Positions 5,122 to 20,787 of a stretch of DNA of 30,281 nt are shown here, one piece after another. A program made the position numbers and the translations under genes. A model generated the notes under the pieces. That model was not told where the DNA came from, ran no database searches, and saw only the letters and a program-made list of their open reading frames with translations. The stretch's first letter is position 1. Every line of letters starts with the position of its first letter. This DNA comes from a virus, in the IMG/VR virus record IMGVR_UViG_3300030450_000258, positions 1-30,281 of that record; one strand, 5' to 3'.

Positions 5122-5993
5122 TAGTCTACCTCTTCTACGTTGACGAACTCAGCCACAATAGCAGCATCATCATCAGAGATAGTCTCCTTATTCTTTTCAT
5201 CCCATTGTTCTAAGATGTAAGAGTTTTGCGTAGTGATGTACGCTAAGAAGTTATGTAGAGTATCCTGATCTTCATGTTGTAACTCTACCTTATCACCTGT
5301 CTCTAAAGTTATGATAGCAAAGTTGTTACCAGTTTTACTGTCAACTATGTTAGCACCTAGATTCAACATACACTGTATAGGAAGTATGTTTTTACGTCCT
5401 AGTGCATTGACTGTTAAATCTAAAGACTTGATGCTTGAAGGAGGTACTTCAAAAGAGAAAGGCATAGTAGTTATATCATCTACTGGATTACCTGCTTCAT
5501 CAGTAACACCTGTTGCAGTCAACTCCCCAAAGAGAATCTTCTTACGTTTAATACTACGAATCAAATCCTTTGTCTTTTCAGGGACGCTATCCCAATCTTC
5601 AATATAACCTGATGGTCTACCTAGATTAAATGTACCAACATTATCTTTGAGGTCACCCTTAAGATCGTTAGCCATGACTGTCTTCATCATCATTTCTTCT
5701 TTGGCATCCCACTTTGACCACTGCTGTCGGATTGCAAAGATACGTATGGTAGGACTAGTTGCGTAGACAACATCATCTTCACCTCTTGTAATCTTGTATG
5801 CACCTGCAGGTACAACCTCAGTCTTGATAGGCTTACCGTTAACTTCAATTTCACCCATGATTCCTGTGTGCATCAAGTTTACTCTAGGTAAAGCAGCCGT
5901 TTTTCTTTCACTGCCACCACTTTGAGGAGTTACACCTACTGCCTCTGCAAGAGACATACCTAAATCGTTTTGTATCGCTAGTTCTGTATTCAT
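5121..5993 (-). CDS. Putative single-stranded DNA-binding protein
   Basis: 290 residues with a long beta-rich middle and an acidic C-terminus (SDDDAAIVAEFVNVEEVD), the signature tail of phage and bacterial ssDNA-binding proteins. It is followed by the exonuclease and endonuclease I genes and preceded by the DNA polymerase, the same company kept by T7 gp2.5. I cannot show an OB fold from sequence alone, and the protein is larger than gp2.5, so this is position plus tail rather than homology. The ATG at 5993 has only a weak purine-rich leader, and a 45-bp gap separates it from the polymerase stop. Confidence 0.5.
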   Translation of the reverse strand: MNTELAIQNDLGMSLAEAVGVTPQSGGSERKTAALPRVNLMHTGIMGEIEVNGKPIKTEVVPAGAYKITRGEDDVVYATSPTIRIFAIRQQWSKWDAKEEMMMKTVMANDLKGDLKDNVGTFNLGRPSGYIEDWDSVPEKTKDLIRSIKRKKILFGELTATGVTDEAGNPVDDITTMPFSFEVPPSSIKSLDLTVNALGRKNILPIQCMLNLGANIVDSKTGNNFAIITLETGDKVELQHEDQDTLHNFLAYITTQNSYILEQWDEKNKETISDDDAAIVAEFVNVEEVD

Positions 5994-6038
5994 TGTTTTA
6001 CTTACTTTCTTTTAAAGTTAAAGATGGTTAGTTATACT

Positions 6039-8087: not shown

Positions 8088-9313
8088 GCTAAGTACTGGC
8101 TCCTGTCTCCATCTAACTCACAATGAATAGTACCATGCCATCCACCCTTAAGTTTATTCTTGGCTATGCAAAGATGTCTCTGATTACTCTCCTCTTCATC
8201 TTGCCCCTCAACCACTCTGTTCTTTGATATAAGTATCATCAAGTCAGCCTCTGCTGCTTTACCAGTACGGCTACCCTCAAGCATTGATTGATCAGGATGT
8301 ACCAAACCTTCTGCTGCTGCACTCAACTGTGACATCCATATGATTGCACACTTGTGTTCCTTGGATATATTACGGGCATGTATGGCTGCTTCCTTGAGAT
8401 AGATGTCCGACTTGTCACTTGTCTTAGACGCAAACTTGTCACCCATATCAAGCACTACAATGTCAGGCTCGTATGCTTTGATGATAGCCTCAACCCATGC
8501 CATGTCTTTACCTGTACTGTCTTTGATAAAGACGTTCTTCTCCACTGGATCGTAACGTAATGCAGCCACCGCCATGTTAGTCTTCACTTCATCCATGCTC
8601 ATACTTGTAGCGGCACTAAGGTATCTTGCACCTACACGTTCATAGCTTTCTTCGTTACACAGCACCATGCACTTAGCACCCTGTGATGCAAACCCATCAG
8701 GTGCAGCTATTGTACTAGCATGAAAGCTAGTCTTACCTGTGTTAGGTCTAGCACCTACAACAACTAAATGTCCTGCACTTATGCCCTCTGTCCTACGTTT
8801 AAGTGTAGGTATGTTCCACTTCCATTGTGACTGTATATCATTGGCTTTTAATAATGTATCAATACTTGTATCATCCCACTCTACCTTGAGGTTGGGTAGG
8901 AAATCATCTTGGTAATTACTCAGTATTTTTCTCAGGGGTTCAAGACTAGACTGTGATCCGTTAACGTAGTCAAATCCAAGGTTAGCAATCTCTTCACCTA
9001 CCACCTGTTGAAATAACTTAGACAGTACATCATCAGCTATCTCTGTAGACAGCGGCTTCTCTCGTGAAACCTTTTGAAACAACTCACTAAAGACTAGCTT
9101 GTTAGCTGTAGTCATACTGGTATTGTTAACAAAGAACAGAGACTCTAACTCTGTGGGTGTAATGTTCTTACCGTATGTGTCCATAGCGTAGTCAAGAGTC
9201 TGCTTGATCTTACGAGCATCCTTACTGAATATCTTATCAGGGCAACGTATACCCTTATGATTATCGTAGAACTCTTTGTCCAACATAGTGCGGATCAATG
9301 CTAGTTCCATCAT
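8084..9313 (-). CDS. DnaB-like replicative helicase (RecA-fold ATPase)
   Basis: 409 residues. The C-terminal half is a RecA-fold motor: Walker A at 187-196 (GARPNTGKTS), the CNEES segment (219-223), Walker B ending at D289 (DIVVLDMGD) and the sensor-like WMSQLS (326-331). The N-terminal 140 residues are helical, as in the primase-interacting part of DnaB-type proteins. No primase domain is fused, unlike T7 gp4; the primase is a separate gene two genes upstream of the small-gene pair. AGGAG seven bases before the first of two tandem ATGs supports the start. It should unwind the fork ahead of the adjacent polymerase. Confidence 0.9.
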   Translation of the reverse strand: MMELALIRTMLDKEFYDNHKGIRCPDKIFSKDARKIKQTLDYAMDTYGKNITPTELESLFFVNNTSMTTANKLVFSELFQKVSREKPLSTEIADDVLSKLFQQVVGEEIANLGFDYVNGSQSSLEPLRKILSNYQDDFLPNLKVEWDDTSIDTLLKANDIQSQWKWNIPTLKRRTEGISAGHLVVVGARPNTGKTSFHASTIAAPDGFASQGAKCMVLCNEESYERVGARYLSAATSMSMDEVKTNMAVAALRYDPVEKNVFIKDSTGKDMAWVEAIIKAYEPDIVVLDMGDKFASKTSDKSDIYLKEAAIHARNISKEHKCAIIWMSQLSAAAEGLVHPDQSMLEGSRTGKAAEADLMILISKNRVVEGQDEEESNQRHLCIAKNKLKGGWHGTIHCELDGDRSQYLA

Positions 9314-9332
9314 GTTTGTCTCCTCTCTCTAA

Positions 9333-9506
9333 TCAAAGTTCTCCTCCTTCCTGAGTATATCCCATGTTATAAACTTTATCCAACTCTTCATCAAACTTCT
9401 TGTCTGATGCATACCTCCTACACGCCTCTAATACTTCATCTACTGTCAAGTCAACGTAAACTTTACCTAACGGTACACGATCATCTATTATTGCTGTCTT
9501 CTTCAT
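9333..9506 (-). CDS. 57-residue acidic protein upstream of the helicase
   Basis: The sequence starts MKKTAIIDDRVPLGKVYVDL and has a strand-rich N-terminus and an acidic helical C-terminus (VDEVLEACRRYASDKKFDEE). The start is well supported by AAGGAG six bases upstream, and it overlaps the end of the preceding gene by 26 bases. No family recognised. The start codon lies inside the 3' end of the small two-cysteine gene, indicating tight packing of the operon. Confidence 0.7.
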   Translation of the reverse strand: MKKTAIIDDRVPLGKVYVDLTVDEVLEACRRYASDKKFDEELDKVYNMGYTQEGGEL

Positions 9507-9675
9507 TTGTATCTCCTTGTATGCACGTCAGCCTTACTCCTACCCTACTCTCTGGTGTCATTGAATAGTACAACATATCATAGTTACTAAAACATTCAAA
9601 CATATCATCGTATGTTGCCACCTTCCTGACTTCTGGCTCACCATTAAACAACCATATAAATACTAACGTCCACAT
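9481..9675 (-). CDS. Small hydrophobic-N-terminus protein with two cysteines (family copy B)
   Basis: 64 residues. It opens MWTLVFIWLFNGEPEVRKVA, then YDDMFEC with C28 heading a helix, and a late strand RLTC with C51, followed by a hydrophilic tail. This is the same plan as the proteins at 464, 13443 and 26641. The N-terminal hydrophobic part is short for a classical signal peptide, so it may be a buried strand of a small domain instead. The gene is directly coupled to the basic HTH-like gene upstream (stop and start share position 9675). Function unknown. Confidence 0.7.
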   Translation of the reverse strand: MWTLVFIWLFNGEPEVRKVATYDDMFECFSNYDMLYYSMTPESRVGVRLTCIQGDTNEEDSNNR

Positions 9676-9890
9676 CAGCCATAGTTCCTCCTATACTTCT
9701 TAGGGAAGTGTTCTTTATTCATCCCTCTGTTAACTTGCTCTGCTGCCCACGAGTAGTTCACATTAAAGTGTCTCGCTGCATCAGCTATACTCTTGAAGTC
9801 TTTGCCGTGTAACCGACAGGCTCTGCCTCTCTGCTGTTGCGTTGGCTCTACCTTGATACGGATATGGCATGGTACATTCTTTGGTTGCAT
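9675..9890 (-). CDS. Small basic helix-turn-helix-like DNA-binding protein
   Basis: 71 residues, strongly basic. Residues 24-56 (CRLHGKDFKSIADAARHFNV then NYSWAAEQVNRG) fit the pattern of the HTH repeats found in homing endonucleases (NUMOD1/IENR1-like): a short strand, F-K-S-I-x-x-A-A, then a recognition helix. There is no nuclease domain in this protein, but an HNH-type endonuclease VII gene ends on its start codon. It may be a free-standing regulator or a relic of a homing gene. The call is moderate, based on pattern only. Confidence 0.6.
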   Translation of the reverse strand: MQPKNVPCHIRIKVEPTQQQRGRACRLHGKDFKSIADAARHFNVNYSWAAEQVNRGMNKEHFPKKYRRNYG

Positions 9891-10336
9891 TAGTTTGTCT
9901 CCTTATGTTTCTTAATATATTTAACAGCTTCTTCTAGTCGTTCAAGGCTGTCGTTGAATGATCCTAAACCAGTGTTGCAATGATGGCACAACCACCCTCT
10001 AAATGTGTTGGTGTCGTGGCAATGATCTAGCACCCATGACTTTAACTTCTTTTGTTTCTTCCTCCCTAGTATTGTTATATCTCTATTACATATGGGACAG
10101 CAGTAGTCCTTATCAGGATAAGCATTCTGACTCTTAAGTGTTTTGATTACTGCTGAGTGTCCCTTGATACAGGACTTACATATTCTTTTATATTCAATAA
10201 CTCCTGACGCATATACTATGCTAGTGAAATTAGAGTAGGGCTGACATACTCCACACTTGTTACACTCAAGCCCATCATTATATACTTGCTCCTCTTCATC
10301 AAACTCAAATAACTTTAGCTGCTCTTCTTCATTCAT
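9890..10336 (-). CDS. Endonuclease VII-family HNH nuclease
   Basis: 148 residues. The C-terminal half carries the family hallmark: WVLDHCHDTNTFRGWLCHHC followed by NTGLGSF, with D104, H105 and H107 of the ββα-metal site and N121. Structural zinc ligands are the CPIC and CHHC pairs (C80/C83 and C117/C120). The N-terminal half adds a second Cys4 knuckle (C25, C28, C53, C56). T4 endonuclease VII resolves Holliday junctions and debranches DNA before packaging; smaller HNH relatives can be homing nucleases. It is coupled by ATGA to the primase gene upstream. Confidence 0.87.
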   Translation of the reverse strand: MNEEEQLKLFEFDEEEQVYNDGLECNKCGVCQPYSNFTSIVYASGVIEYKRICKSCIKGHSAVIKTLKSQNAYPDKDYCCPICNRDITILGRKKQKKLKSWVLDHCHDTNTFRGWLCHHCNTGLGSFNDSLERLEEAVKYIKKHKETN

Positions 10337-11124
10337 AGAATCTCCTCTAGCTTGGATATGTCTGCCTCTACTTTATATTTGATGTCATCATAAAGCCTTA
10401 ATGCTATAGTCTCTAACCCTGTGTAAGCCTCTATTTCTCTTTTATATTGTAGCGTCTTGTGTGCTGCATCAGGGTCTAACGCTACGATAACTTTGTAGAA
10501 ATTATCTAAGTGTTGCATATTAGACACACTGAATGACGTACCAAGTATAGCTAAACCTGTCAAACCAGGAAATAATTTAGCTGCTACGGTAGCACTAATA
10601 ACATCCTCAACTACTATCACTACGCCACTGGGTTTACCTACAACACGAGTGAATACAGTAGGTGTCTTGTCATAACGCTTCCACTTAATCTGACCTGAGT
10701 AAGATGTACATCTACCTATCGCACCTACAAGTCTGCCCCTATCATAGATAGGAAACACTACTCGTGAGTCCATTACATCATACATCAAGTCTTCACCATA
10801 CAAGCCCCACCTGCCAATGAATCTTTCGTACTGTTTATGTTCTGCGGTGGGTGTAACTATGTACTCAGGCCAAGTGAATAACTCATGTTCTGACTCAGGT
10901 TCATCTAGAGCGTTCAACCTACGTTGTATCTCTTGTGCTGTCATGCCTGATGACACGACACCTTTAACTCTACAGTCAAGCTTGTAACAGTTGTAGAGCA
11001 ATGCACTGCCATCTCGTACAGCAGTGAATGTGTTCTTACCTCTACACACAGGACAGTCACCTCTATGTCTGTAATCTTCTTTTAGATCAAGGGCTTCTAG
11101 GTAGTTCTTAATGTTTACATTCAT
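10333..11124 (-). CDS. DNA primase (zinc-binding domain plus TOPRIM)
   Basis: 263 residues. The N-terminus is a Cys4 zinc ribbon (C24, C27, C46, C51: CPVC and CYKLDC), used for template recognition. The TOPRIM catalytic residues follow: E173 in VIVVEDVISATVA and D217-x-D219 in VIVALDPDAA. Length and order match the primase half of T7 gp4, here uncoupled from the helicase. It synthesises RNA primers for the lagging strand. The gene overlaps both the integrase stop and the endonuclease VII start by four bases. Confidence 0.92.
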   Translation of the reverse strand: MNVNIKNYLEALDLKEDYRHRGDCPVCRGKNTFTAVRDGSALLYNCYKLDCRVKGVVSSGMTAQEIQRRLNALDEPESEHELFTWPEYIVTPTAEHKQYERFIGRWGLYGEDLMYDVMDSRVVFPIYDRGRLVGAIGRCTSYSGQIKWKRYDKTPTVFTRVVGKPSGVVIVVEDVISATVAAKLFPGLTGLAILGTSFSVSNMQHLDNFYKVIVALDPDAAHKTLQYKREIEAYTGLETIALRLYDDIKYKVEADISKLEEIL

Positions 11125-12026
11125 GTCTTATTCCTCTTAGCTAACGCATTACTTGCACCACTAAATGTGTTGACCAAGTATGGCTTGACTGACTCAGGAT
11201 TTCTATGACCACTGACTTGCATGATCTGAGCTAGGTCAGCGTCACCCTCCACCATCTCAGTGATAGCAGTCCTGCGTAGATCCATAGCAGTTATTTCTTT
11301 AGGTAGTCCTGCTTCTTGTTTGACTTCGTTGATAGCTGTATCAATGTGGTCAATTGGGTAAGGTACATATGCACCTGCCACTGGCTTAGTCTTTGGTGCT
11401 ACATAATCTTGAAACCCAAAGTCTTGGCTCTGTTGTTTGAGCATAGTAAGTAGGTCATCAGGTATAGGTAAGTGTACGTCAGCACCACGCTTACTTTGTG
11501 TTAAATCAACACGCTTTGCATCAAAGTTAATGTGATCCCAGGTTAGCATACGCATATCTCCAACACGCTGCGCCCACTCGTATGACATATGTACAATCAA
11601 CCCAATGCTACGCCACTTGAAGTTGCCGTATGCTGTGTCAAGAAAAGATACTACTTGTTCACGAGTCCATTTGACTTTACGAGGTGCAGTACTTTGTGTC
11701 TCAATCAAACGCACTGGATCATTGTCCATTATATCTAGCCTCATGCAGTACTTCCATGCTGTTGAGAGTACAGCCTTACGATAATTAGCTGTGCGTATTC
11801 CTGCTTTCAACCACTTAGAATAAGCTAGGTTAGTGTGCCTAGCCTTGATGCTACGCACTGTGTAGTTACCCAATAGCCTACCCTCTACGTTAGTCTTTAA
11901 CACAGCGGATAAATGTATCTCGTAGTCTCTCTGTGACTTAGCACTAAGCCTAAGAAAGTTACTGCTGTTAAGATAGTACTCAACAATAGCTGATAACTTA
12001 GATGTATGTTTAGGTATCTCTACCAT
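11121..12026 (-). CDS. int: Tyrosine recombinase / phage integrase
   Basis: 301 residues from the chosen ATG, which is preceded by GTGAGGAG; an in-frame GTG nine codons upstream (12053) is possible but lacks a ribosome site. A SAM-like N-terminal domain precedes the catalytic domain with R154 (AQRVGDMRMLTW), K179 (TQSKRG), R251 (MDLRRTAIT), H274 (SGHRNPE) and nucleophile Y283 (KPYLV). The usual HxxR histidine is Met248 here (A-M-D-L-R). The family integrates and excises phage DNA or resolves genome forms. Lying inside the replication operon, upstream of primase, it recalls other marine podoviruses that carry an integrase without an obvious repressor. Confidence 0.92.
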   Translation of the reverse strand: MVEIPKHTSKLSAIVEYYLNSSNFLRLSAKSQRDYEIHLSAVLKTNVEGRLLGNYTVRSIKARHTNLAYSKWLKAGIRTANYRKAVLSTAWKYCMRLDIMDNDPVRLIETQSTAPRKVKWTREQVVSFLDTAYGNFKWRSIGLIVHMSYEWAQRVGDMRMLTWDHINFDAKRVDLTQSKRGADVHLPIPDDLLTMLKQQSQDFGFQDYVAPKTKPVAGAYVPYPIDHIDTAINEVKQEAGLPKEITAMDLRRTAITEMVEGDADLAQIMQVSGHRNPESVKPYLVNTFSGASNALAKRNKT

Positions 12027-12104
12027 TTTCTCCTCACTTTCCAATAAACCCACGACTCCATGCAGTGCCCTCTACCAATCAGCATATCAATCAAATAAAC
12101 TACG

Positions 12105-12290
12105 TTAGGCTTTCCCTCTTTTTGCCACTGATAATTTCTTGCGCTGAACGTCTGATTGTTTTGTCCTCCTAGGATCACGTTTATCAGGACGCTCATTGCT
12201 GTTAGTATTCTCTTTAGATAGATCCGCAAGCCTATCAGTGATGTCATCATGTGGATCATCTTTCGGGTCAACTTCATCATCATCTATCAT
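12105..12290 (-). CDS. Small charged protein with acidic N-terminus and basic C-terminus
   Basis: 61 residues, MIDDDEVDPKDDPHDDITDR then a basic half ending SVAKRGKA. The strong charge separation suggests a nucleic acid- or protein-binding adaptor, but there is no family match. Its ATG overlaps the stop of the 32-residue membrane peptide upstream (ATGA). A competing frame (12020-12283, 87 codons) overlaps almost all of it. I prefer this one because of the coupled junction, though the competing frame ends beyond the integrase start and cannot be excluded. Confidence 0.5.
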   Translation of the reverse strand: MIDDDEVDPKDDPHDDITDRLADLSKENTNSNERPDKRDPRRTKQSDVQRKKLSVAKRGKA

Positions 12291-12385
12291 ACCACACCTA
12301 CAAACACTAAGAGTATATAAACGAATGGTGCTAATAGATATATTGATATAGCAATTCGTATTACGTCATTAAAACAAAGGTTCAT
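12287..12385 (-). CDS. 32-residue membrane peptide
   Basis: MNLCFNDVIRIAISIYLLAP followed by FVYILLVFVGVV. After a short polar head, nearly the entire chain is hydrophobic, enough for one membrane span. The ATG lies within the last codons of the upstream gene and the stop overlaps the next ATG (ATGA). The ribosome site (GGATGAG) is weak, so expression by coupling is likely. Function unknown. Confidence 0.5.
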   Translation of the reverse strand: MNLCFNDVIRIAISIYLLAPFVYILLVFVGVV

Positions 12386-12575
12386 TATTCTCATCCAATA
12401 CATCTCTCCTAAAATAATTAGTATTACTTCTCCAAGGTAATTCTATATCGTTTACCCCATCATCTTCATGTGAAACAGGTAGCAAACCCATAGCCTCCAT
12501 ATGGCTCAGTAAACTAACTGGCAACTGAGGTATCTCCATATTTGGAAGACTGCCTATAATTTTCTTTGTCTTCAT
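12369..12575 (-). CDS. Unidentified 68-residue protein
   Basis: From the chosen ATG the protein runs MKTKKIIGSLPNMEIPQLPV, then a helix (SLLSHMEAMGLLPVS), an acidic stretch (HEDDGVND) and WRSNTNYFRRDVLDENNE. GGAGAG shortly before the ATG supports this start; the frame is open further upstream (to 12623) but without a ribosome site. It overlaps the preceding gene by 62 bases, which is long for this genome, so either the start is later or the overlap is real. No family recognised. Confidence 0.5.
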   Translation of the reverse strand: MKTKKIIGSLPNMEIPQLPVSLLSHMEAMGLLPVSHEDDGVNDIELPWRSNTNYFRRDVLDENNEPLF

Positions 12576-12723
12576 CTGTCTCTCCAAAACATTCTTTAAT
12601 ATAAACAAACTCATTCTTAGCATACAGATCTTTTAAATACAATATATCTCTACGGCTATCGCTTGAATGATATGCAAACATCTTCTTTGTTGTCTTACTG
12701 TATATGTCTAATGCGTAGTACAT
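12514..12723 (-). CDS. Unidentified 69-residue protein
   Basis: The sequence begins MYYALDIYSKTTKKMFAYHS and continues with SSDSRRDILYLKDLYAKNEFVYI, giving a strand-turn-strand-helix-strand layout of a compact domain, then a hydrophilic tail. TAGGAG lies seven bases before the ATG. No family recognised; it is one of the string of small genes between the methyltransferase and the integrase. Confidence 0.65.
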   Translation of the reverse strand: MYYALDIYSKTTKKMFAYHSSDSRRDILYLKDLYAKNEFVYIKECFGETDEDKENYRQSSKYGDTSVAS

Positions 12724-12731
12724 AGCTGCTC

Positions 12732-13040
12732 CTACACATTGATATATTGATGTGTGTTCATAGTGTATTCAATACCCATCTCGTAGTCGGGGCAACTAGA
12801 ATACAACTCTGATAATGCATCTACTGTAACCTTTACATTATTTAGAAGTACTCCCTCTGAATCCTGGTAATCACCATCGTCAAAGACAGGTATAACCGTC
12901 ACTACCTCTTTCCAATGTTTCCATCTGTGATCCTCTGGCTTATCGTCAGGGTTCAAACACTTACGGTGTCTCTCGTACACAAATATAACTGCATCGTGAT
13001 GGTCACCTACTTTTACTTTATATGTTTTATCCTCTAACAT
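12732..13040 (-). CDS. Unidentified 102-residue protein
   Basis: Mixed alpha/beta protein with an aromatic- and histidine-rich middle (PEDHRWKHWKEVVTVIPVFD). The N-terminal strand pair (TYKVKVGDHHDAVIFVYERH) and a later helix (VDALSELYSSC) suggest a compact fold. Its start overlaps the end of the upstream gene by seven bases. I recognise no family. Confidence 0.65.
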   Translation of the reverse strand: MLEDKTYKVKVGDHHDAVIFVYERHRKCLNPDDKPEDHRWKHWKEVVTVIPVFDDGDYQDSEGVLLNNVKVTVDALSELYSSCPDYEMGIEYTMNTHQYINV

Positions 13041-13330
13041 TTTAGTTCCTCCTCCTCTATGTATTCAACTAAATCTAAATTATGTATTTTAGCTATGCCA
13101 GTAAGAGCAAAGTGTTGCATGTCTGTAGGCACATCATCCCAATGGGAATTATCTATTATATACTGTAACTCTGATGATTCTTTAACTAACACCACTTTAG
13201 TATGACCTTTACTATTCAAATCCCACACTAAATGATTAAGAGCGTAGTCGCCTGTGTGATGTTTTCTTCCTAGCACAAGTGTTATGTCACACGCTGCTGA
13301 AAGTGTTTCATACATACTTTTATCTACCAT
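13034..13330 (-). CDS. Unidentified 98-residue alpha/beta protein
   Basis: Residues 8-60 alternate helix and strand (TLSAACDITLVLG, DYALNHLVWDLNSKG, HTKVVLVKES, SELQYIIDNS), a pattern like a small Rossmann- or flavodoxin-like half-domain, with an acidic C-terminal tail (VEYIEEEELK). The ATG overlaps the stop of the 35-residue basic gene upstream (TAATG), with AGGAGG a few bases before it. No specific family or active site is evident. Confidence 0.65.
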   Translation of the reverse strand: MVDKSMYETLSAACDITLVLGRKHHTGDYALNHLVWDLNSKGHTKVVLVKESSELQYIIDNSHWDDVPTDMQHFALTGIAKIHNLDLVEYIEEEELKC

Positions 13331-13437
13331 TACTTCCTCCTCTTATTAGCGAAGTTCTCTACTATTCTTTTGTTTCTGCATATGACAATGACATACCCAT
13401 CCTTGTCATACGCTACCCATTTCTTTTTGCGTTGCAT
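13330..13437 (-). CDS. 35-residue basic peptide
   Basis: MQRKKKWVAYDKDGYVIVIC then RNKRIVENFANKRRK. About a third of the residues are Lys or Arg, flanking a strand-turn-strand core (WVAYDKDGYVIVI). The stop overlaps the next ATG (TAATG). It starts six bases after the stop of the two-cysteine gene upstream. It may bind nucleic acid; no family match. Confidence 0.55.
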   Translation of the reverse strand: MQRKKKWVAYDKDGYVIVICRNKRIVENFANKRRK

Positions 13438-13442
13438 AATGA

Positions 13443-13616
13443 CTACTCTACTTGTAGTTCTAGGCACGCCACTGTCTCACTCTTGTTTGATACCAAGATA
13501 GCAGCTTCACTCATTGCCGCAAGGCATTCCTCCTGACTGGCATATGTCTCAACGTGATAGTATTTCACTGTTTGAGATGTGACTAGTAGCTGCATCCATA
13601 CTAATGCCCAAACCAT
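13443..13616 (-). CDS. Small hydrophobic-N-terminus protein with two cysteines (family copy C)
   Basis: 57 residues: MVWALVWMQLLVTSQTVKYY, then VETYASQEEC (C31) opening a helix, and a late ETVAC (C51) strand. This is the third copy on the minus strand of the plan described for 464 and 9481; a fourth is on the plus strand at 26641. The ATG overlaps the stop of the HTH gene upstream (TAATG), which strongly supports the start. Function unknown; the paired cysteines suggest an oxidising compartment or a structural disulfide. Confidence 0.65.
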   Translation of the reverse strand: MVWALVWMQLLVTSQTVKYYHVETYASQEECLAAMSEAAILVSNKSETVACLELQVE

Positions 13617-13840
13617 TATGCTGCATCCTCAGATGAACGCCATACATATCGTGTGTAACGCTGTCCTGTCACTGGGTGTTTACTCTTCACACCATCAATG
13701 GCGTACCCTAGCTTGCGTAACTCACTGATACGAGCAGTGAATGATTGTATGCTGTAGTCAAGCAATGCCTCACGCTGTGTCAAACCTTTGGTTGCCTTAA
13801 GGTGTTTAAGTATCTTTGTGTATTGTGTAGTTTTAGACAT
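13616..13840 (-). CDS. Helix-turn-helix protein (HTH_39-like)
   Basis: 74 residues. ILKHLKATKGLTQREALLDY followed by SIQSFTARISELRKLGYAID matches the winged-helix pattern of small phage proteins grouped as HTH_39, with a beta wing (GQRYTRYVWRS) after it. This is the clearest sequence-specific DNA-binding candidate in the window and could be the regulator that acts on the divergent control region near 20 kb, but nothing links it directly to those sites. Confidence 0.8.
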   Translation of the reverse strand: MSKTTQYTKILKHLKATKGLTQREALLDYSIQSFTARISELRKLGYAIDGVKSKHPVTGQRYTRYVWRSSEDAA

Positions 13841-13841
13841 C

Positions 13842-14057
13842 TTATTTCTCCTTTGTTATAGATGTTATTATATCTCGCAATGTTTGCGTAGATTCTGGTG
13901 GTATGCTCAGTGTCTCACCTGTAGCATCTTGTGTAAGTACGAGTCGGTCATTGTTGTACAATGTAGCCTCCCATCCGTAACCTAAATTTGATTGTTTAAC
14001 TACTCTGTTGTAGCCATCATCTGATATGATTGCACCTTGTGTTGTCTTGTAGTTCAT
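13842..14057 (-). CDS. Unidentified 71-residue protein
   Basis: A beta-rich N-terminal part (GWEATLYNNDRLVLTQDATG) and a C-terminal helix (STQTLRDIITSITKEK). It overlaps the upstream 39-residue gene by ATGA and ends just before the HTH gene. No family recognised. Confidence 0.65.
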   Translation of the reverse strand: MNYKTTQGAIISDDGYNRVVKQSNLGYGWEATLYNNDRLVLTQDATGETLSIPPESTQTLRDIITSITKEK

Positions 14058-14173
14058 TCTTCAGTCTCCTCTTCTACTTTAAACGTCACTGTAACGTAGC
14101 CAAATTCATCTATAGCCTCATGCTTGTGTGTTGGACAAGTAGCAAGCCACTCCCAAAACTCTTCTCTATTCAT
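14054..14173 (-). CDS. 39-residue acidic peptide
   Basis: MNREEFWEWLATCPTHKHEA followed by IDEFGYVTVTFKVEEETEE. An amphipathic aromatic N-terminus is followed by a beta strand and an acidic tail. Both ends overlap neighbouring genes by ATGA, which is the main support for its being a gene. No family recognised. Confidence 0.6.
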   Translation of the reverse strand: MNREEFWEWLATCPTHKHEAIDEFGYVTVTFKVEEETEE

Positions 14174-14505
14174 TGTTGTGTCTCCTTTTGTTTTTCTGCA
14201 ATGTCGTGTACTCTTTCCATTAATACAGCTAATGCCACATTAAAATCTGTAAGGCTACAGTTTTCCGCAACATCTCTAATATTATCCCAGAAATCATACT
14301 TGTGTGGTTTTCTTGCAGCAGTTCCAGGATTTGGCTTGCTGTCTATAACTTCCTTGGCTGCAACATCTATTGCACCGGTGAATGTGTTAAGCCACTTGAG
14401 TAGGCTAGGCTTGTCCGTTGGTACATCTACCATGTCAGCACCAATCTTCTTAGCCTCAGCCTGTGTGCCTACCCATTCGCCTTGCTTGTTCATGTACAAT
14501 CTCAT
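14170..14505 (-). CDS. Unidentified 111-residue protein
   Basis: It starts MRLYMNKQGEWVGTQAEAKK and has a helical C-terminal half (DFWDNIRDVAENCSLTDFNV). The N-terminal strand-turn (LYMNKQGEWVGTQ, then VDVPTDK) is seen in several small phage proteins, but I cannot name the family. It is coupled by ATGA at both ends. Confidence 0.65.
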   Translation of the reverse strand: MRLYMNKQGEWVGTQAEAKKIGADMVDVPTDKPSLLKWLNTFTGAIDVAAKEVIDSKPNPGTAARKPHKYDFWDNIRDVAENCSLTDFNVALAVLMERVHDIAEKQKETQQ

Positions 14506-14717
14506 TTTCCTAATGCCTCCTTCAAATCTTCATCGGTTATCTCTTTAACGTACTGCCAATCGTATATGTCTTCATCTGTACCTAGACGTGGCTTGAAGTA
14601 CCCACTCCTATCACCTATCTCAGCAAGCAAAAGCCTAGCTGCGTTGGATGCATCTATGTCACTGTAACCTAAAAACTGTACAGCTTTGCCGCCCTTATGG
14701 TATGTCTTAACTTGCAT
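14502..14717 (-). CDS. Unidentified 71-residue protein
   Basis: Contains a strand (AVQFLGYSDIDA), a helix (SNAARLLLAEIGDRSG) and an acidic C-terminal helix (DEDLKEALGK). It overlaps the genes on both sides. No family recognised. Confidence 0.6.
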   Translation of the reverse strand: MQVKTYHKGGKAVQFLGYSDIDASNAARLLLAEIGDRSGYFKPRLGTDEDIYDWQYVKEITDEDLKEALGK

Positions 14718-14952
14718 CTTCTTTCACGCCTTTCACCAATTCTATCAGAAAATTTGTGCTGTCCAATTCCATGTCGCGCATCTCTCTTTCTCTCGGATCG
14801 CGTGACACATCCAGATCTTGTAGTTGCTCGTACAAACTATCCAAAGCAACTTGCAACGTGTTTACGTCCATGAGGTTGAGTTGAGCAGCCGCTCCATTCG
14901 GGAGCACAAGATATGTGTGCCCCATCGGTAATTCATGTATTCTCCTAGTCAT
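14707..14952 (-). CDS. Unidentified 81-residue protein
   Basis: An N-terminal strand (HTYLVLPNGAAAQLNLMDVN) leads into a long charged helix (SLYEQLQDLDVSRDPREREM). A coiled-coil dimer is plausible. A good CGGAGG site precedes the ATG, in a 41-bp gap that is one of the few true intergenic spaces of the left arm. Confidence 0.65.
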   Translation of the reverse strand: MTRRIHELPMGHTYLVLPNGAAAQLNLMDVNTLQVALDSLYEQLQDLDVSRDPREREMRDMELDSTNFLIELVKGVKEDAS

Positions 14953-14993
14953 CTTTAACCTCCGATAAAAACATTTTTAAAATTTGTCTTGGT

Positions 14994-15182
14994 TCAAATA
15001 TTTGATTCAGTACTTGCATCGTCTGTCCTCATTCTTACATCAAGTCTCCAAGTAAATCCTGTTAGAGTTTCAGATGTTGCTAAACCTAAGTCTATTATAT
15101 GTTCGTGAATTGCATCAGCCAATATGTCTATTGTGTGACACTCCAAGTCCTCTGCTGCTATCACTATATCTTTATACTGCAT
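14994..15182 (-). CDS. Unidentified 62-residue protein
   Basis: MQYKDIVIAAEDLECHTIDI and following residues form a short helical domain ending in a strand (FTWRLDVRMRTDD). It overlaps the upstream gene by 11 bases. No family recognised. Confidence 0.6.
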   Translation of the reverse strand: MQYKDIVIAAEDLECHTIDILADAIHEHIIDLGLATSETLTGFTWRLDVRMRTDDASTESNI

Positions 15183-15357
15183 CTAGTATCTCCTCTAATT
15201 GATTGATAATCACATTACCTTTACAGATTTTATCTACTGCTATGTGTCTTTCCTCTTCAGTGTTGAACGGAGACACAGCATCTACTTCCAGTTGTTTGAA
15301 GCTGCGTGCCACGTTAACTATCTTCTGTCTGTTAAAAAATAAATCTTGTAGTTGCAT
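15172..15357 (-). CDS. Unidentified 61-residue helical protein
   Basis: Helical throughout (RQKIVNVARSFKQLEVDA and ERHIAVDKICKGNVIINQLE). The ATG closely follows the stop of the 33-residue gene upstream, which supplies its ribosome site (GAGGAGG-like). No family recognised. Confidence 0.6.
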   Translation of the reverse strand: MQLQDLFFNRQKIVNVARSFKQLEVDAVSPFNTEEERHIAVDKICKGNVIINQLEEILDAV

Positions 15358-15358
15358 T

Positions 15359-15460
15359 TCAATAGTCCTCCTCTAATCCTGACCATATGTATGCTAGGTA
15401 TCGCCAAAAGGTTTTACCAAATGCTTCATTGATTAAGTCATCCATCTCTTGCTCAGTCAT
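15359..15460 (-). CDS. 33-residue peptide
   Basis: MTEQEMDDLINEAFGKTFWR then YLAYIWSGLEEDY. An acidic amphipathic helix is followed by an aromatic hydrophobic patch, which could touch a membrane or a partner protein. AAGAGG lies a few bases before the ATG, and the gene overlaps the upstream stop by eight bases. No family recognised. Confidence 0.55.
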   Translation of the reverse strand: MTEQEMDDLINEAFGKTFWRYLAYIWSGLEEDY

Positions 15461-15641
15461 TGTCTTGTACCTCTTCCCAAGTATAGGGGTTAAAACTAAA
15501 ATCATAGTATGTCCATTTAAAATCTGATCCATTTTCAGAGAGCCAGTTATGTATTCCTGTTTGTGTTTTTGCTACCTCTTGTGGCACTTCAACAAAACAT
15601 TCTTTATAAGATGTCTCTTCTGCTAATACTCGTATTATCAT
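15453..15641 (-). CDS. Unidentified 62-residue acidic protein
   Basis: A beta-rich acidic protein (MIIRVLAEETSYKECFVEVP; later FKWTYYDFSFNPYTWEE). It overlaps the methyltransferase stop by four bases. No family recognised. Confidence 0.6.
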   Translation of the reverse strand: MIIRVLAEETSYKECFVEVPQEVAKTQTGIHNWLSENGSDFKWTYYDFSFNPYTWEEVQDND

Positions 15642-16840
15642 TGTGTTTCCTCCTTTAGTCCTTCAAAGATATGCTTGATAACATCAACTGTCCATCCGTT
15701 GCCTAGCATCTTGTAGCGTTGTGTGTTACTTACGCCACAGGTATACCCATCAGGTACAGTTTGTAATCTCTCACATTCAGTCACAGTAAGCTTACGCCAA
15801 TGCATTTCGTTTATCTTAACTGCTACATTATCTTTCTGCACTGTTGTAAGTGCATTAGTCTTTTCATCTTTCCTGACTTCTAGGCGTTGTGTTGTTAGTC
15901 CTGCAACCTTTTGTTTATGATCTTGTCGCACACCATCTTTGATGTAACGTCCACGCCACGCACCGCATTTTATCTCTACTTTAGGTTGATTGTGTCCACC
16001 TGTTGTAGCCCTTAAAGAGGGTGATTTACCTTCGGCAGCGTACACTCTGTTGATCATTGCATACTTATCATTTAGCTTTGCATCGCCTATATGTATTAAC
16101 CCATCTTTACTTTTTTGTTCAGGTACATATCCAATAGCGTAGCCATGCGTACCTGCACAGACTGTGCCTGATTTACTCTCCACATCGTGTATCGTATTAG
16201 CTTGACTACGATAGTCAGGATTGAGCATATCAGGATTCTTGTCACTTGCTCTGCGTTTCTCCTGCAAGTAAGCACCGGCACGATAAAACTCTGCTGTCTC
16301 TTCCTCTAGTATATCTTTGAGCATAATACCTTTGTCCTCTGGCAATCCATCAAACGGAATGTTTGTCCAATATAATCTCTTACGGTTCTGCGCTGAGACT
16401 AGGTTGCTGTTTATCTCTACAGGTTCTACACCTAGATAGTCAGTAATGATTTGCTCACTTTCCTTCTTCATCTTGACATTCTCAAGTAGGAAATACTTTG
16501 GCTTGAGTGCTTTCAACAATCTGTCAAACTCAAAGAATAACTTACTGCGTGGATCGTCAAAGTTTAAACCTTTGCCGCCAAAGCTAAAGCCCTGACACGG
16601 ACTACCACCAATGAGCAAATCAATCTTGTGTCCACAGTCAAACTCGTCCATCAAATGAGTACCACTAGTCTTGATGTTCTTGACATCACCTAAGTGTATC
16701 ATATCAGGATAATTTTTCCTGGCAATCTGGATTGCATACTTGTCAATCTCCGCTGCAAAGTAGTTTTTAACTGGTATGCCTAGCTGATCTAGTGCGATCT
16801 GCCCACAAGACATACCATCAAACAGGCTCAGTACGTTCAT
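15638..16840 (-). CDS. C5-cytosine DNA methyltransferase
   Basis: 400 residues from the chosen ATG, which has AGGAG eight bases upstream; in-frame upstream ATGs lack this. Motifs in order: I (LSLFDGMSCGQIAL), IV (GGSPCQGFS, catalytic Cys82), VI (LLENVK, E120), VIII (SAQNRKRLYW), a target-recognition region rich in Gly and basic residues, IX (LTVTECERLQTVPDGY) and X (MLGNGWTVDVI). It transfers a methyl group from S-adenosylmethionine to cytosine C5. No restriction endonuclease is adjacent, so it is probably an orphan enzyme protecting phage DNA from host restriction or marking it. Specificity cannot be read. Confidence 0.95.
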   Translation of the reverse strand: MNVLSLFDGMSCGQIALDQLGIPVKNYFAAEIDKYAIQIARKNYPDMIHLGDVKNIKTSGTHLMDEFDCGHKIDLLIGGSPCQGFSFGGKGLNFDDPRSKLFFEFDRLLKALKPKYFLLENVKMKKESEQIITDYLGVEPVEINSNLVSAQNRKRLYWTNIPFDGLPEDKGIMLKDILEEETAEFYRAGAYLQEKRRASDKNPDMLNPDYRSQANTIHDVESKSGTVCAGTHGYAIGYVPEQKSKDGLIHIGDAKLNDKYAMINRVYAAEGKSPSLRATTGGHNQPKVEIKCGAWRGRYIKDGVRQDHKQKVAGLTTQRLEVRKDEKTNALTTVQKDNVAVKINEMHWRKLTVTECERLQTVPDGYTCGVSNTQRYKMLGNGWTVDVIKHIFEGLKEETQ

Positions 16841-16946
16841 CTTTTTTCTCCTCATATAAACCATCTATATCTCCCGAATATCCATCACACATATGTTCGT
16901 GATCATTTGGGCAATTACCTCCACAATACTTACAAACTTCATCCAT
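16818..16946 (-). CDS. 42-residue zinc-knuckle peptide
   Basis: The first 20 residues hold four cysteines and two histidines (MDEVCKYCGGNCPNDHEHMC), enough for one zinc site, followed by an acidic tail. GGAGGAG eight bases upstream is among the better ribosome sites in this arm. The 3' end overlaps the methyltransferase start, so the two are co-translated. It could be a small regulator; no family match. Confidence 0.6.
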   Translation of the reverse strand: MDEVCKYCGGNCPNDHEHMCDGYSGDIDGLYEEKKDERTEPV

Positions 16947-17112
16947 CTTTTTTACTCCTCCAATATGTAGGTAACTCTATCTTAATATACTCACAATCTT
17001 TGTCTTCAAGAATACTTAATAAATCCTCCAGTGTGGCATTTGTGTCACTGCCAAACGTCCATGTTACTCGTGGTGGTTCGTCTTTAAACTTTGTTACTAC
17101 ATCATAAAACAT
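16939..17112 (-). CDS. Unidentified 57-residue protein
   Basis: MFYDVVTKFKDEPPRVTWTF followed by GSDTNATLEDLLSILEDKDC and a strand (EYIKIELPTYW). It has a beta-alpha-beta layout. The ATG overlaps the upstream stop (TAATG) and the 3' end overlaps the zinc-knuckle gene. No family recognised. Confidence 0.6.
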   Translation of the reverse strand: MFYDVVTKFKDEPPRVTWTFGSDTNATLEDLLSILEDKDCEYIKIELPTYWRSKKDG

Positions 17113-17327
17113 TAGATATACCTCTCCTCGTTTGCTCTATCTGTGTAAGTGCAATACCCCTCGTCAATTAGTCGTTTTGCTGTACGTCCAAACCAACCTT
17201 GCAAACGCCACGCCAAACCAGTGTCAATCAAGTATTGCCAAGCTGCTGTCTCTTCTTCAAGATCTGCCATGACTAGCTGCTCACAAATTTGAACAGCTAA
17301 TTCTGGCGTGAAGTGATACTCCTTCAC
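17112..17327 (-). CDS. Conserved small phage protein
   Basis: 71 residues, all helical. The C-terminal half (AWQYLIDTGLAWRLQGWFGR then TAKRLIDEGYC) is a pattern I have seen in small proteins of many unrelated phages, where its function is unknown. It overlaps both neighbours (TAATG downstream). Confidence 0.7.
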   Translation of the reverse strand: MKEYHFTPELAVQICEQLVMADLEEETAAWQYLIDTGLAWRLQGWFGRTAKRLIDEGYCTYTDRANEERYI

Positions 17328-17707
17328 TGTGTCACCTCCTCTACTTTTTTAAACCATTGCTCTGCTTGTGTGTCAGTTAGCTTGTACTCTTTGTTAGTCT
17401 TTAAGTCTTGTACAATCCAAGGCATCTTTGGTGCTTTACTCTTGTAGCCTACCAAAGACATAGTCATACCTTGATAGTCTTTGATCTTGGACGTATCCAA
17501 ACCCATTAGTTTAGCCATCTGTGTCAAGTCTTTCTGTTCTTTAGTCTCTGCTCCATCAAGTAATACGTTTACTTTGTATGTAGCCTCGCCACCATTGTAG
17601 GTACAGTTAGTGACATTGAATGTCATACCCTCTAATTTAACTTGCTCTAATGCTGATTGCATTGCTTGACGTATTGCTTTTAGTTGTGGTTTTGTAAAGT
17701 TAGTCAT
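17324..17707 (-). CDS. Unidentified 127-residue phage protein
   Basis: A helical N-terminus (FTKPQLKAIRQAMQSALEQV) is followed by a beta-rich segment (MTFNVTNCTYNGGEATYKVN) and a C-terminal helix (TDTQAEQWFKKVEEV). It resembles small conserved phage proteins but I cannot name the family. It is the last gene before base composition and codon use become clearly more AT-rich upstream. Confidence 0.65.
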   Translation of the reverse strand: MTNFTKPQLKAIRQAMQSALEQVKLEGMTFNVTNCTYNGGEATYKVNVLLDGAETKEQKDLTQMAKLMGLDTSKIKDYQGMTMSLVGYKSKAPKMPWIVQDLKTNKEYKLTDTQAEQWFKKVEEVTQ

Positions 17708-17712
17708 TGTTG

Positions 17713-18030
17713 TTACCTCCTATAGTTGATAAATTCTTTTAATAAGTTTCCGGTATATTCATTGTCGGAATAGTCGCAAATAATTTCTTCTGGTTCACTT
17801 TCATAATCTAGAACAATAAATAGCCAACCAATGCATTTCTTTTTTTCGCTATCCAAAAATTTTACTGTTGAAATATCCACCGCAAAAACACTTTCAATAA
17901 TCTCATTTACTGTAAAATTTTCATTTATTCTTTCGCCATCAACTCTAACAACTATTTTAATTTTGGGATCAAGATAAGCTTTCTTAATAATTTTTCTTAA
18001 AAGTGTTTTTGCTTTTGCTTCAAGTTTCAT
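17713..18030 (-). CDS. Unidentified AT-rich gene, 105 residues
   Basis: Lys/Ile/Glu-rich protein (TLLRKIIKKAYLDPKIKIVV) with a strand-rich centre and acidic C-terminal part. The chosen ATG has GGTGG upstream and overlaps the preceding gene by 11 bases. Codon use is more A/T-biased than in the replication genes, suggesting recent acquisition together with the next genes upstream. No family recognised. Confidence 0.65.
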   Translation of the reverse strand: MKLEAKAKTLLRKIIKKAYLDPKIKIVVRVDGERINENFTVNEIIESVFAVDISTVKFLDSEKKKCIGWLFIVLDYESEPEEIICDYSDNEYTGNLLKEFINYRR

Positions 18031-18250
18031 TTTGCACCACCTTAAAAACACCGCCTATTATTTCCCCGTCTTCATCAAGCATATTTGTTTCACCTGAATT
18101 TAAAACTTCATCATAATTAAAGTCGTATTGAATAGAAAATTTCTTTAATTCTTTTTTGCTGTTTATGAAGTTTAAACCGGCACAAGTAGTAGAAACTTTT
18201 GAACCGTCATTAAACCAAATTTTAAACATACTTTCAGTTAACTGTATCAT
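18020..18250 (-). CDS. Unidentified AT-rich gene, 76 residues
   Basis: Starts MIQLTESMFKIWFNDGSKVS; beta-rich with an acidic end (NMLDEDGEIIGGVFKVV). The ATG at 18250 is preceded by GGGAGGAT, a much better start than the in-frame ATG at 18277. It shares the AT-rich codon use of its neighbour. No family recognised. Confidence 0.65.
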   Translation of the reverse strand: MIQLTESMFKIWFNDGSKVSTTCAGLNFINSKKELKKFSIQYDFNYDEVLNSGETNMLDEDGEIIGGVFKVVQNET

Positions 18251-18279
18251 TTTATCCTCCCTTAATATTTGAACCATTG

Positions 18280-18438
18280 TTATTGTCTCCTATTTGTTAC
18301 GAGTGTTTCCATTACTTCAATATGTAAATTCATTATAGTTATTTCCGATAGGTGGCTAAGTATTTCAGCAATGCTCCGCTTCTCTCCCTTCGCCAAAAGT
18401 TTTAAACTTAATTCCTCTATTTGTGTTTCTGTAGCCAT
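18280..18438 (-). CDS. 52-residue helical protein
   Basis: MATETQIEELSLKLLAKGEK followed by RSIAEILSHLSEITIMNLHI; two predicted helices, probably a helical hairpin. GGAGG eight bases before the ATG gives good support. It lies immediately downstream of the GP88-like gene. No family recognised. Confidence 0.6.
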   Translation of the reverse strand: MATETQIEELSLKLLAKGEKRSIAEILSHLSEITIMNLHIEVMETLVTNRRQ

Positions 18439-18450
18439 TGTCATTCCCTC

Positions 18451-19290
18451 CTACATATTCAACCACTGTTGATATAATTCATTATCTAATTGTTTAAGTG
18501 TTTCAATTTCTTCTTCAGTTAAGTCAACAACAAAGCCACTCCTATCATGTCTTGCCTTGCCCTTAGCGTATAATTTAACTATTGAATTGCAAGGATCAAG
18601 AAAACGTAAATCGTCTTTGTCTCCATCAGTGACATTTATGCCACGCCATTGCGGAAGCTTGTATTCTTTGCGGAACACCACTGCTGCATTCATACCATTG
18701 GCTAAGGCATCAGTAAGCTTTGCAGCATAATCTGCATTAGCTCCCGAATAGCTCCACGTTAAATGATAGTTGAATATGTTTTTCGTTTTTCTATTAGAAA
18801 TTTTTGTATAGTCGTAAAACTGTACTTCGGGGAATAGCTCAAAGATATTTTTAGCTTCAACCTCTTTGTCGTTTTCTATGTCTTTGTCATTAAAAGCATA
18901 GCTCCACCCATTAACTTTGATTAACTCCCATCTAATATCGGTCGTGCCGTTTAATCTAACGCATGGCTGAATGCCACGTTTCTCACAATAGTTAACAAAC
19001 TTATTTATATCCACAACAAGTTGATCCATAAAGCTTTCCCTATCCCTATAGAACCACTGTGCTTTACGTTGACGTGCAGTTTGCACGTTGTTCATTTGTC
19101 CACGCCCTGCAGTATATAAGCAAGCGTCAATACAACTGGCTATTGCTGCCATGCTACAGCTATTGAATAGCTTTCCATCCACCATAATTTTGTATGGTGT
19201 CATATATAGAATAGCAGTTAAGTATTCGCTACCATCTCCCTTTACAGTTTTGGCATTAGTGCCTACGCCTAATAATTTATAATTACCCAT
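18451..19290 (-). CDS. GP88-like conserved phage protein
   Basis: 279 residues. The blocks GNYKLLGVGTNAKTVKGDG, CLYTAGRGQMNNVQTARQRK, CVRLNGTTDIRWE and the late DGDKDDLRFLDP with RSGFVV resemble the family of mycobacteriophage L5 gp88. Four cysteines (C45, C53, C57 and later C102 and C110) cluster in the N-terminal half and could bind metal. The function of the family is not known to me. It has a strong ribosome site (CAGGAGGATAAC) and follows an 85-bp spacer with a hairpin, so it may be separately regulated. Confidence 0.75.
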   Translation of the reverse strand: MGNYKLLGVGTNAKTVKGDGSEYLTAILYMTPYKIMVDGKLFNSCSMAAIASCIDACLYTAGRGQMNNVQTARQRKAQWFYRDRESFMDQLVVDINKFVNYCEKRGIQPCVRLNGTTDIRWELIKVNGWSYAFNDKDIENDKEVEAKNIFELFPEVQFYDYTKISNRKTKNIFNYHLTWSYSGANADYAAKLTDALANGMNAAVVFRKEYKLPQWRGINVTDGDKDDLRFLDPCNSIVKLYAKGKARHDRSGFVVDLTEEEIETLKQLDNELYQQWLNM

Positions 19291-19324
19291 TGTGTTATCC
19301 TCCTGTTGAGTTTGTTATTTCACC

Positions 19325-19370
19325 AAGTAGCACTCCGAAAAATGCTACTTAATAAAAGAACACCTCCTTA
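19325..19370 (-). promoter_or_regulatory. Hairpin with an upstream unused Shine-Dalgarno sequence
   Basis: On the minus strand TAAGGAGGTG (19370-19361) is a near-perfect ribosome site with no usable start codon after it. It is followed by a perfect 8-bp inverted repeat (19325-19332 and 19343-19350) with a 10-base loop. There is no T-run, so it is not a classical terminator. It lies in the 85-bp spacer before the GP88-like gene and may be an RNA processing, attenuation or translational control element, or the remains of a small gene. Confidence 0.5.
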
Positions 19371-19375
19371 TGCTT

Positions 19376-19594
19376 TTAAATGTCAGTCCAGTATTTATCT
19401 AGAAAAGTTTGTGTGCTTTCCCATGCGTTCCATTCTTCTTGTGTCATTAATTTACATATTTGAGCTTCAATTTCATTTACAATTAAAAGCCATTCATTGT
19501 GTGTAGTTGATCTTTGACTATTTCTACTTGTGTAAAAATGAAAGCTTGTTCTAATCAGTCCTACTATTGTTTGTTTTCTTTTTTCTTCGTTCAT
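19376..19594 (-). CDS. Unidentified 72-residue helical protein
   Basis: A basic helical N-terminus (MNEEKRKQTIVGLIRTSFHF) and a Trp-rich C-terminal half (TQEEWNAWESTQTFLDKYW). GAGGA lies seven bases before the ATG, and the start overlaps the upstream stop (ATGA). No family recognised. Confidence 0.65.
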   Translation of the reverse strand: MNEEKRKQTIVGLIRTSFHFYTSRNSQRSTTHNEWLLIVNEIEAQICKLMTQEEWNAWESTQTFLDKYWTDI

Positions 19595-19798: not shown

Positions 19799-19828
19799 AA
19801 TATATGAATAGCTATTTTGTGGTCACAA
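19799..19828 (-). promoter_or_regulatory. Leftward sigma70-like promoter of the early operon
   Basis: Minus strand: -35 TTGTGA (19828-19823), 18-base spacer, -10 TATATT (19804-19799). The -10 is close to consensus. The -35 lies inside the left operator, so binding there would block the promoter. A start near 19792 would place the first gene about 28 bases downstream. Confidence 0.55.
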
Positions 19829-19829
19829 A
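19816..19829. promoter_or_regulatory. Operator-like dyad, left copy
   Basis: TTTGTG-GT-CACAAA, a perfect 6-bp dyad around two central bases. It overlaps the -35 of the leftward promoter. Its centre is 42 bp (four helical turns) from that of a second copy at 19858-19871 carrying the complementary centre AC. Confidence 0.65.
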
Positions 19830-19857
19830 TTAAGAATAGCCATGCACGTCTGTTCTA

Positions 19858-19871
19858 TTTGTGACCACAAA
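19858..19871. promoter_or_regulatory. Operator-like dyad, right copy
   Basis: TTTGTG-AC-CACAAA. Together with the left copy it forms a 15-bp inverted repeat (19816-19830 and 19857-19871). The same-face spacing would allow cooperative binding by one dimeric regulator. Confidence 0.65.
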
Positions 19872-20052
19872 CAAAATAGGGGTATGTTTTTTTACATACA
19901 TTGCACAACTATTGAAGCTATATCAGTAGTAAAACCTAGTAAAAACAATAACTTATAAGCTAAAACAACCGGAGAATTACAAATAAAATATTCTAAACTG
20001 AAGAACCATTAATAAATATGTAGTATTTTCAATGACTTAACAAGAATGTCAA

Positions 20053-20496: not shown

Positions 20497-20529
20497 TTTG
20501 TTGTAATCTATGTAAAGTTTTACTTGACA

Positions 20530-20787
20530 ATGCGTAACAAAGGCGTACAACTATATGCATCCGAAGATGTGTTAACTGATTTCTACGATGCACTAGCTAA
20601 TAATGATGCTCGTGCAATACGAAAGGTTCACATTCCTAAGTCGGATGTGTTTTACGTTAGGGAAGCAATATATAATCGTACTGGTGAGTGGTACACATTA
20701 GATCATGTAGAACGTGCTATGTATCTTGAAGGTATGTTAACTAAGGATGAAGTACTAGATCCAGACAGGGAACGTGAATATGGATAA
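20530..20787 (+). CDS. First gene of the rightward operon, unidentified
   Basis: 85 residues from the ATG at 20530 (MRNKGVQLYASEDVLTDFYD). Acidic, mixed helix and strand, with YNRTGEWYTLDHVERAMYLE in the middle. There is no ribosome site; the ATG directly follows TTGACA, so a leaderless message or an internal start is possible. It overlaps the next gene by eight bases. No family recognised. Confidence 0.65.
   Translation: MRNKGVQLYASEDVLTDFYDALANNDARAIRKVHIPKSDVFYVREAIYNRTGEWYTLDHVERAMYLEGMLTKDEVLDPDREREYG

Follow-up and report, generated by a model that had tools for sequence, protein, structure and literature searches.

Helically phased dyads beside the early operon of an HMO-2011-type phage as candidate sites of a host AkgR-like regulator

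Genomic context of the dyads

The window, by which we mean the whole stretch of DNA analysed here, covers positions 1-30,281 of a virus record that is 55,427 bp long. It belongs to an HMO-2011-type podovirus (subgroup I) related to the roseophages CRP-2 and CRP-603. This assignment is based on the relatives of its DnaJ-type DNA polymerase and on its conserved gene order; the polymerase is 72% identical to that of CRP-603, 71% to that of CRP-2, and 57% to that of HMO-2011. The closest DNA matches to the dyad region come from phages of RCA-clade Rhodobacteraceae. Judging from CRP-2 and CRP-603, the window phage probably infects a Rhodobacterales host.

Two 14-bp dyads lie in the non-coding stretch between two divergent operons, adjoining the leftward early operon. 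The rightward operon encodes the terminase and portal proteins. The features of the locus are as follows:

822..19594, minus strand: leftward early operon, the proposed target of control, with genes for a GP88-family protein, methyltransferase, HTH_39 protein, integrase, primase, helicase, DNA polymerase, and ribonucleotide reductase
11121..12053, minus strand: tyrosine integrase (PF00589), not needed for having the sites
13616..13840, minus strand: HTH_39 (PF14090) winged-helix protein, the repressor candidate of the preliminary description, rejected here as the binder
18451..19290, minus strand: GP88-family gene (PF17338), the first long gene of the leftward early operon
19828-19799, minus strand: candidate leftward promoter TTGTGA-18-TATATT, a weak 9/12 match to the consensus with its -35 inside the first dyad
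19816-19829, no strand assigned: first dyad, TTTGTGGTCACAAA, exact, the nearer of the two to the leftward early operon
19858-19871, no strand assigned: second dyad, TTTGTGACCACAAA, exact, 42 bp from the first, or about four helical turns
19816..19871, no strand assigned: inverted repeat formed from both dyads, with 15-nt perfect arms at 19816-19830 and 19857-19871
20524..20787, plus strand: first rightward gene, the other edge of the divergent region, common to many site-bearing contigs

Sequence of the two dyads

Both dyads are exact and lie 42 bp apart from start to start, as the preliminary description had reported. Exact matches to TTTGTGNNCACAAA occur twice in the window and never in 100 dinucleotide-preserving shuffles. 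At a looser threshold of two mismatches, two matches are found in the window against 2.6 expected by chance; as this count is at chance level, the signal is carried by the exact matches.

Each of the two sites differs by one central base from TTTGTGATCACAAA, the form found in relatives, with GT and AC centres instead of AT. The first dyad, for example, aligns with a TTTGTGATCACAAA site of relative L003. A GT...AC pair as in the window is rare, being found in four contigs in the scan, and the only other centre of G/C type is the single GT-centred site of CRP-13. Comparison with the AT-centred sites of L003 suggests that the window pair arose through a single central change followed by inverted copying. 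As the alignment score of the window arm (19) is matched or beaten by two site pairs among relatives, an origin of the inverted arm by template switching is not proven. Avoidance of GATC was considered as a cause of the GT and AC centres and rejected: the tetramer is only mildly depleted in the full record (152 occurrences against 197 expected), and this is insufficient to explain them.

The preliminary description also held that the left copy covers the -35 of the only strong leftward promoter. The -35 of the candidate does lie in the first dyad, but the claim to be the only strong promoter fails, with a better leftward match (10/12) located at 20052-20025. The window contains eight promoter-like matches against 6.7 expected from shuffles, and TTGTGA-18-TATATT is therefore treated as a candidate only.

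Conservation and spacing of the sites in related phages

A search for the same dyad in related phages, as earlier proposed, showed that operator-like sites are kept at the same place, and thus did not refute the operators. Most close relatives have one to four copies, usually TTTGTGATCACAAA, between the divergent operons. The closest-relative set was collected through the GP88 gene. One to three exact TGTGATCACA sites are present upstream of the leftward operon in L003, L007-L010, L012, L013, L016, L017, L019, L021, and L022, and none in the GP88-found relatives L004, L005, L014, L015, and L023. Among isolates, four sites are found in CRP-603, three in CRP-13 (one of them the GT-centred site), two each in CRP-1 and CRP-345, and one in CRP-2. 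None are found in CRP-207, HMO-2011, HTVC033P, CRP-3, CRP-235, CRP-212, CRP-4, CRP-5, CRP-6, CRP-7, or CRP-9, nor in any of the five FZCC0040 phages examined. Close relatives without a site include CRP-207, G001, and G003. When near-sites were sought in CRP-4, CRP-6, and HMO-2011, none was exact, and CRP-6 had one palindrome with a single mismatch (TTTGTCAACACAAA). At the same place, HMO-2011 carries repeats of ACACTTAAGTGT type at a distance of 121 bp, and the other site-less relatives show no clear replacement palindrome there.

In 16 of the 17 loci that could be judged, the cluster is found between divergent operons. Most complete site-bearing records have the AT-centred motif nowhere else; the exceptions (G007, G008, G022) each have one further AT-centred site outside the cluster. 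The position of the sites relative to the promoter varies among relatives, and the frequency of -10-like hexamers is highest 20-35 nt past whichever site is closest to the early operon.

Spacing follows the helical repeat of DNA. At least 120 viral contigs contain paired TGTGATCACA sites 18-48 bp apart, against nine for a reversed control pair. Start-to-start distances are grouped at 20-23, 29-34, 39-48, and 52-55 bp, with gaps between the groups, and cluster near 31, 42, and 53 bp. For 98 non-redundant pairs, in a scan restricted to distances of 28-58 bp and drawn from related phages that are not fully independent, the periodicity at 10.5 bp reached R = 0.60, and none of 2000 uniform draws attained the observed maximum. 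The 42 bp of the window falls in the four-turn group. The earlier proposal that the spacing places both dyads on the same DNA face is thus borne out by phased spacing in relatives, as same-face or cooperative binding would predict. The dyads are operator-like, are conserved in place, and have a spacing phased to the DNA helix.

Other repeats and restriction-site avoidance

The divergent region contains further repeats. A long-range inverted repeat lies upstream of the first rightward gene (20400-20417 and 20482-20499) and recurs in L001, L088, L091, L118, L148, L161, and others with arms of 9-14 nt, which differ in sequence while complementarity is kept. It is found in 19 of 37 non-redundant upstream regions, compared with 2.1 in shuffles, and resembles either a covarying stem or a set of paired sites. 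A second type of dyad, (A)ACATTAATGT(T), occurs in three window copies (20198-20209, 20279-20288, 20341-20352), the last of which is flanked by the two hexamers of a rightward promoter-like sequence, TTGACA-18-TACACT, at 20328-20357; in CRP-2, the corresponding location holds two copies. At about 20044-20117 of the window and about 600-690 of L001 and L002 there is a G-rich non-coding stretch, followed by tacgttatacgtatat...cacacggggtttt, that is strongly conserved in CRP-2 and CRP-603. A palindrome, (T)GTCCAACGTTGGAC(A), occurs in two or three copies near the record ends of CRP-345 (L228, L229) and CRP-1 (L231), with one copy in CRP-345 directly after the operator-like site.

In the full 55,427-bp record, TCGA is absent (44 expected) and GGCC occurs 13 times (56 expected), a scarcity that is restriction-site avoidance. 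The whole genome of HMO-2011 (GU557055) lacks GATC, of which 170 occurrences are expected, and an AT-centred operator would therefore be forbidden there.

The motif in host genomes and its probable regulator

TTTGTGATCACAAA occurs 20 times in 121 genomes of one Rhodobacteraceae family, and the reversed control not once. Of 19 host loci, 16 adjoin the gene of a GntR/FCD regulator, mdh-sucC, or sdh: ten are at a GntR/FCD gene homologous to that of L285 at 5534-6196, three at mdh-sucC, and three at sdhC. The remaining three, read by eye from the sequence, are of atpH, pyruvate carboxylase, and enoyl-CoA hydratase type. In further genomes, pairs of sites separate mdh from sucC, and single sites occur close to sdhC and nuoA. 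RCA-type genomes have sites in the mdh-sucC gap or next to sucC, in the neighbourhood of sdh and nuoA, and ahead of a GntR gene adjoining lpd. Host sites are hence found both at TCA-cycle genes and at the gene of a GntR/FCD regulator. At the level of sequence, the motif of the relatives is identical with this host operator consensus.

When 84,980 species genomes were scanned without bias for paired TGTGATCACA sites, 110 loci were found; Alphaproteobacteria make up about 53 of 80 among the matches listed. The GntR/FCD family adjoins the sites in 17 loci, at a median distance of 39 bp from the gene start. Other families nearest the sites include aminotransferases, glutamine-synthetase-like and sarcosine-oxidase-like proteins, and sucC. 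Orthologues of the GntR protein, with 55-61% identity, are encoded by Planktomarina, IMCC1909, and other Rhodobacteraceae; the regulator is present in RCA-type hosts.

AkgR (RSP_0981) of Rhodobacter sphaeroides is reportedly a GntR-family activator of TCA-cycle genes, and we take the host regulator of the motif to be probably AkgR-like. Both regulon and family fit AkgR. A text search of the literature for TGTGATCACA returned no title or abstract on phage or Rhodobacter regulation; the AkgR study itself (Imam et al. 2015, mBio, doi 10.1128/mBio.02461-14) is cited in PMC4419725. Sites of the FadR subfamily have a palindromic consensus with TKGT/ACMA boxes (PMC4494728). The motif conforms to this pattern, being an A/T-rich palindrome in which TTTGT...ACAAA contains TTGT/ACAA. 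Its GT-AC distance, reading GT and AC in TTGT-GATC-ACAA, is four, longer than the 2-3 nt of most FadR-type sites (PMC4494728).

The motif is also found in a different setting in these genomes. Pairs of TTTGTGATCACAAA and AATGTGATCACATT, 28 bp apart, occur in Planktomarina (L263/L360) and IMCC1909 (L312/L352), adjoining small genes of unknown kind and, in one genome, a gene resembling that of a recombinase. Such a pair perhaps belongs to a mobile element that makes use of this host operator.

Alternative explanations

The preliminary description envisaged a lysis-lysogeny or early-shutoff switch and named the winged-helix protein at 13616 as a candidate binder. A phage-encoded repressor, perhaps a small protein of an unrecognised family, would then bind the paired operators cooperatively; the phased dyads, the integrase gene, and the many small ORFs without assigned function in the leftward operon are in keeping with this. 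The named candidate has to be dropped, given that the distribution of HTH_39 does not follow that of the sites: HTH_39 is missing from CRP-1, CRP-345, and many contigs that bear sites, and conversely CRP-207, SIO1, P12053L, ICBM1, and CRP-118 have HTH_39 and no sites. In a profile search that took in three families (GntR, HTH_3, HTH_39), the HTH_3 domain of a lambda-like CI was found in none of 43 phage records and GntR in none of 44, and among these profiles no repressor gene is tied to the operators. Nor are the sites restricted to integrase carriers, as PF00589 was not found in the site-bearing records G012, G015, G018, G021, G023, G024, G028-G031, and G034, some of which are fragments. Sites are present even in phages whose replication genes are unrelated to those of the window phage (G021, G023, G024, CRP-13), whose proteins in common with the window are structural, of nucleotide metabolism, or unknown, with no recognised DNA-binding regulator among them. 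The nearest kin of two of these other-family groups are the RCA isolates CRP-6 (terminase, 84%) and CRP-4 (DNA); unrelated RCA-type phages carry the same arrays. The tested families GntR, HTH_3, and HTH_39 cannot explain the sites from the phage side. The identity of the motif with a host operator also speaks against a repressor of the phage's own and a switch built on it, and we regard both as unlikely.

The remaining readings differ in what the sites would do. As decoys, they would multiply with the replicating DNA and titrate the host regulator off TCA-cycle genes, thereby altering host metabolism with no phage promoter regulated. This is quite unlikely in our view: the identity of motif and host operator, the two to four sites in each of many genome copies, and the variable position of the sites near the promoter agree with it, but a decoy needs neither a single divergent region nor helical phasing, and the sites show both. 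Clusters of two to four phased dyads in a divergent non-coding region also resemble an origin, and the dyads could act like iterons for a replication initiator or for a host DNA-binding protein other than the AkgR-like regulator. We consider this improbable, since the host sites cluster at TCA-cycle genes and at a single GntR gene and not at origins, and since replication genes are unrelated among site-bearing phages. It is very improbable that the dyads serve as the arms of a cruciform or RNA stem for termination, replication, or packaging. The perfect 15-nt arms, to which CTATTTTG/CAAAATAG and AGAATAG/CTGTTCT add partial extensions, give z-scores of -5.7 as DNA and -5.5 as plus-strand RNA, and are located in a long non-coding region beside repeats. 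Yet the perfect repeat results from the two dyads being reverse complements of each other, and any two dyads form a stem because each is self-complementary. The dyads are kept in relatives while their spacing and number vary, arms outside the dyads are complementary there at about two of eight positions on average (the chance level), L003 has AT centres and a third site, and the hairpin is absent from the results of an intrinsic-terminator scan. The hairpin made by the two sites is probably incidental.

Proposed role of the sites

We favour the reading that the dyads are sites of a host AkgR-like regulator of the GntR/FadR type (FCD-domain), and think it reasonably probable that they couple early transcription to the carbon and energy state of the host. 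Under this proposal, the phage captured host operators, and both 14-bp dyads would be bound by the Rhodobacteraceae AkgR-like regulator of TCA-cycle and respiratory genes. One regulator dimer would occupy each phage site, and the dimers would probably contact each other across about four helical turns. The leftward early genes, including those for replication, integrase, and methyltransferase, would be set by the carbon and energy state of the infected cell. The phage would probably thus tune its early genes to host state with no repressor of its own. The regulator would bind the phage sites, the G/C-centred variant of the window presumably included, and its likely place of action would be the leftward promoter.

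The control could be positive or negative. Activation is somewhat more likely, given that AkgR is said to activate host genes and that -10-like motifs in relatives peak 20-35 nt beyond the site closest to the early operon. In L012, for example, a site lies just upstream of the -35, an arrangement that suits an activator. In the window, the promoter candidate overlaps the site, which would imply repression.

A broader version of the proposal is held more tentatively, at a little under even confidence. Marine phages of several unrelated roseobacter-infecting families may sense the TCA-cycle/2-oxoglutarate state of the host through phased AkgR-operator arrays at an early promoter. The pace of infection, and the lysogeny decision in integrase carriers, would then be set by host carbon metabolism without a phage repressor.

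Comparison with known systems

HMO-2011-type phages are described as belonging to the most abundant groups of marine phages, and no repressor is named in the passages searched of papers on the RCA members. Should the early promoter of these phages respond to a metabolic regulator of the host, the speed of infection in the ocean would depend directly on the carbon and energy status of the host. The sequence signature may also help to predict which metagenomic phages infect Rhodobacterales.

The arrays resemble lambda-type OR/OL regions in that several dyads of similar length lie on one helix face between divergent operons. In contrast to lambda, no phage repressor was found with the GntR, HTH_3, and HTH_39 profiles, the motif is a host operator, and the sites also occur in phages where no integrase was found. 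A further likeness is to the AkgR regulon of Alphaproteobacteria, with its GntR-family regulator, TCA-cycle targets (suc, mdh, sdh), and a regulator gene adjoining lpd in Rhodobacteraceae. TTGTGATCACAA lies upstream of such genes in the genomes examined, the match being by regulon and family rather than by a published motif. The arrangement differs, however, in that it is here a phage that carries the sites, which number two to four, are spaced 20-54 bp apart, and lie beside early genes, and in that those of the window are GT- and AC-centred.

A precedent in principle comes from T4-like cyanophages, in which the host regulator NtcA, controlled by 2-oxoglutarate, is proposed to drive phage genes via phage-borne sites (PMC3037559). 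In both cases, a host regulator of central metabolism is proposed to act through sites carried by the phage. The host groups differ, and NtcA belongs to the CRP-type protein family. In addition, NtcA sites are scattered over many promoters, with 1-16 per genome, whereas those described here form one phased cluster in one divergent region. If the proposal is correct, the idea developed for cyanophages and NtcA would extend to the phages of heterotrophs.
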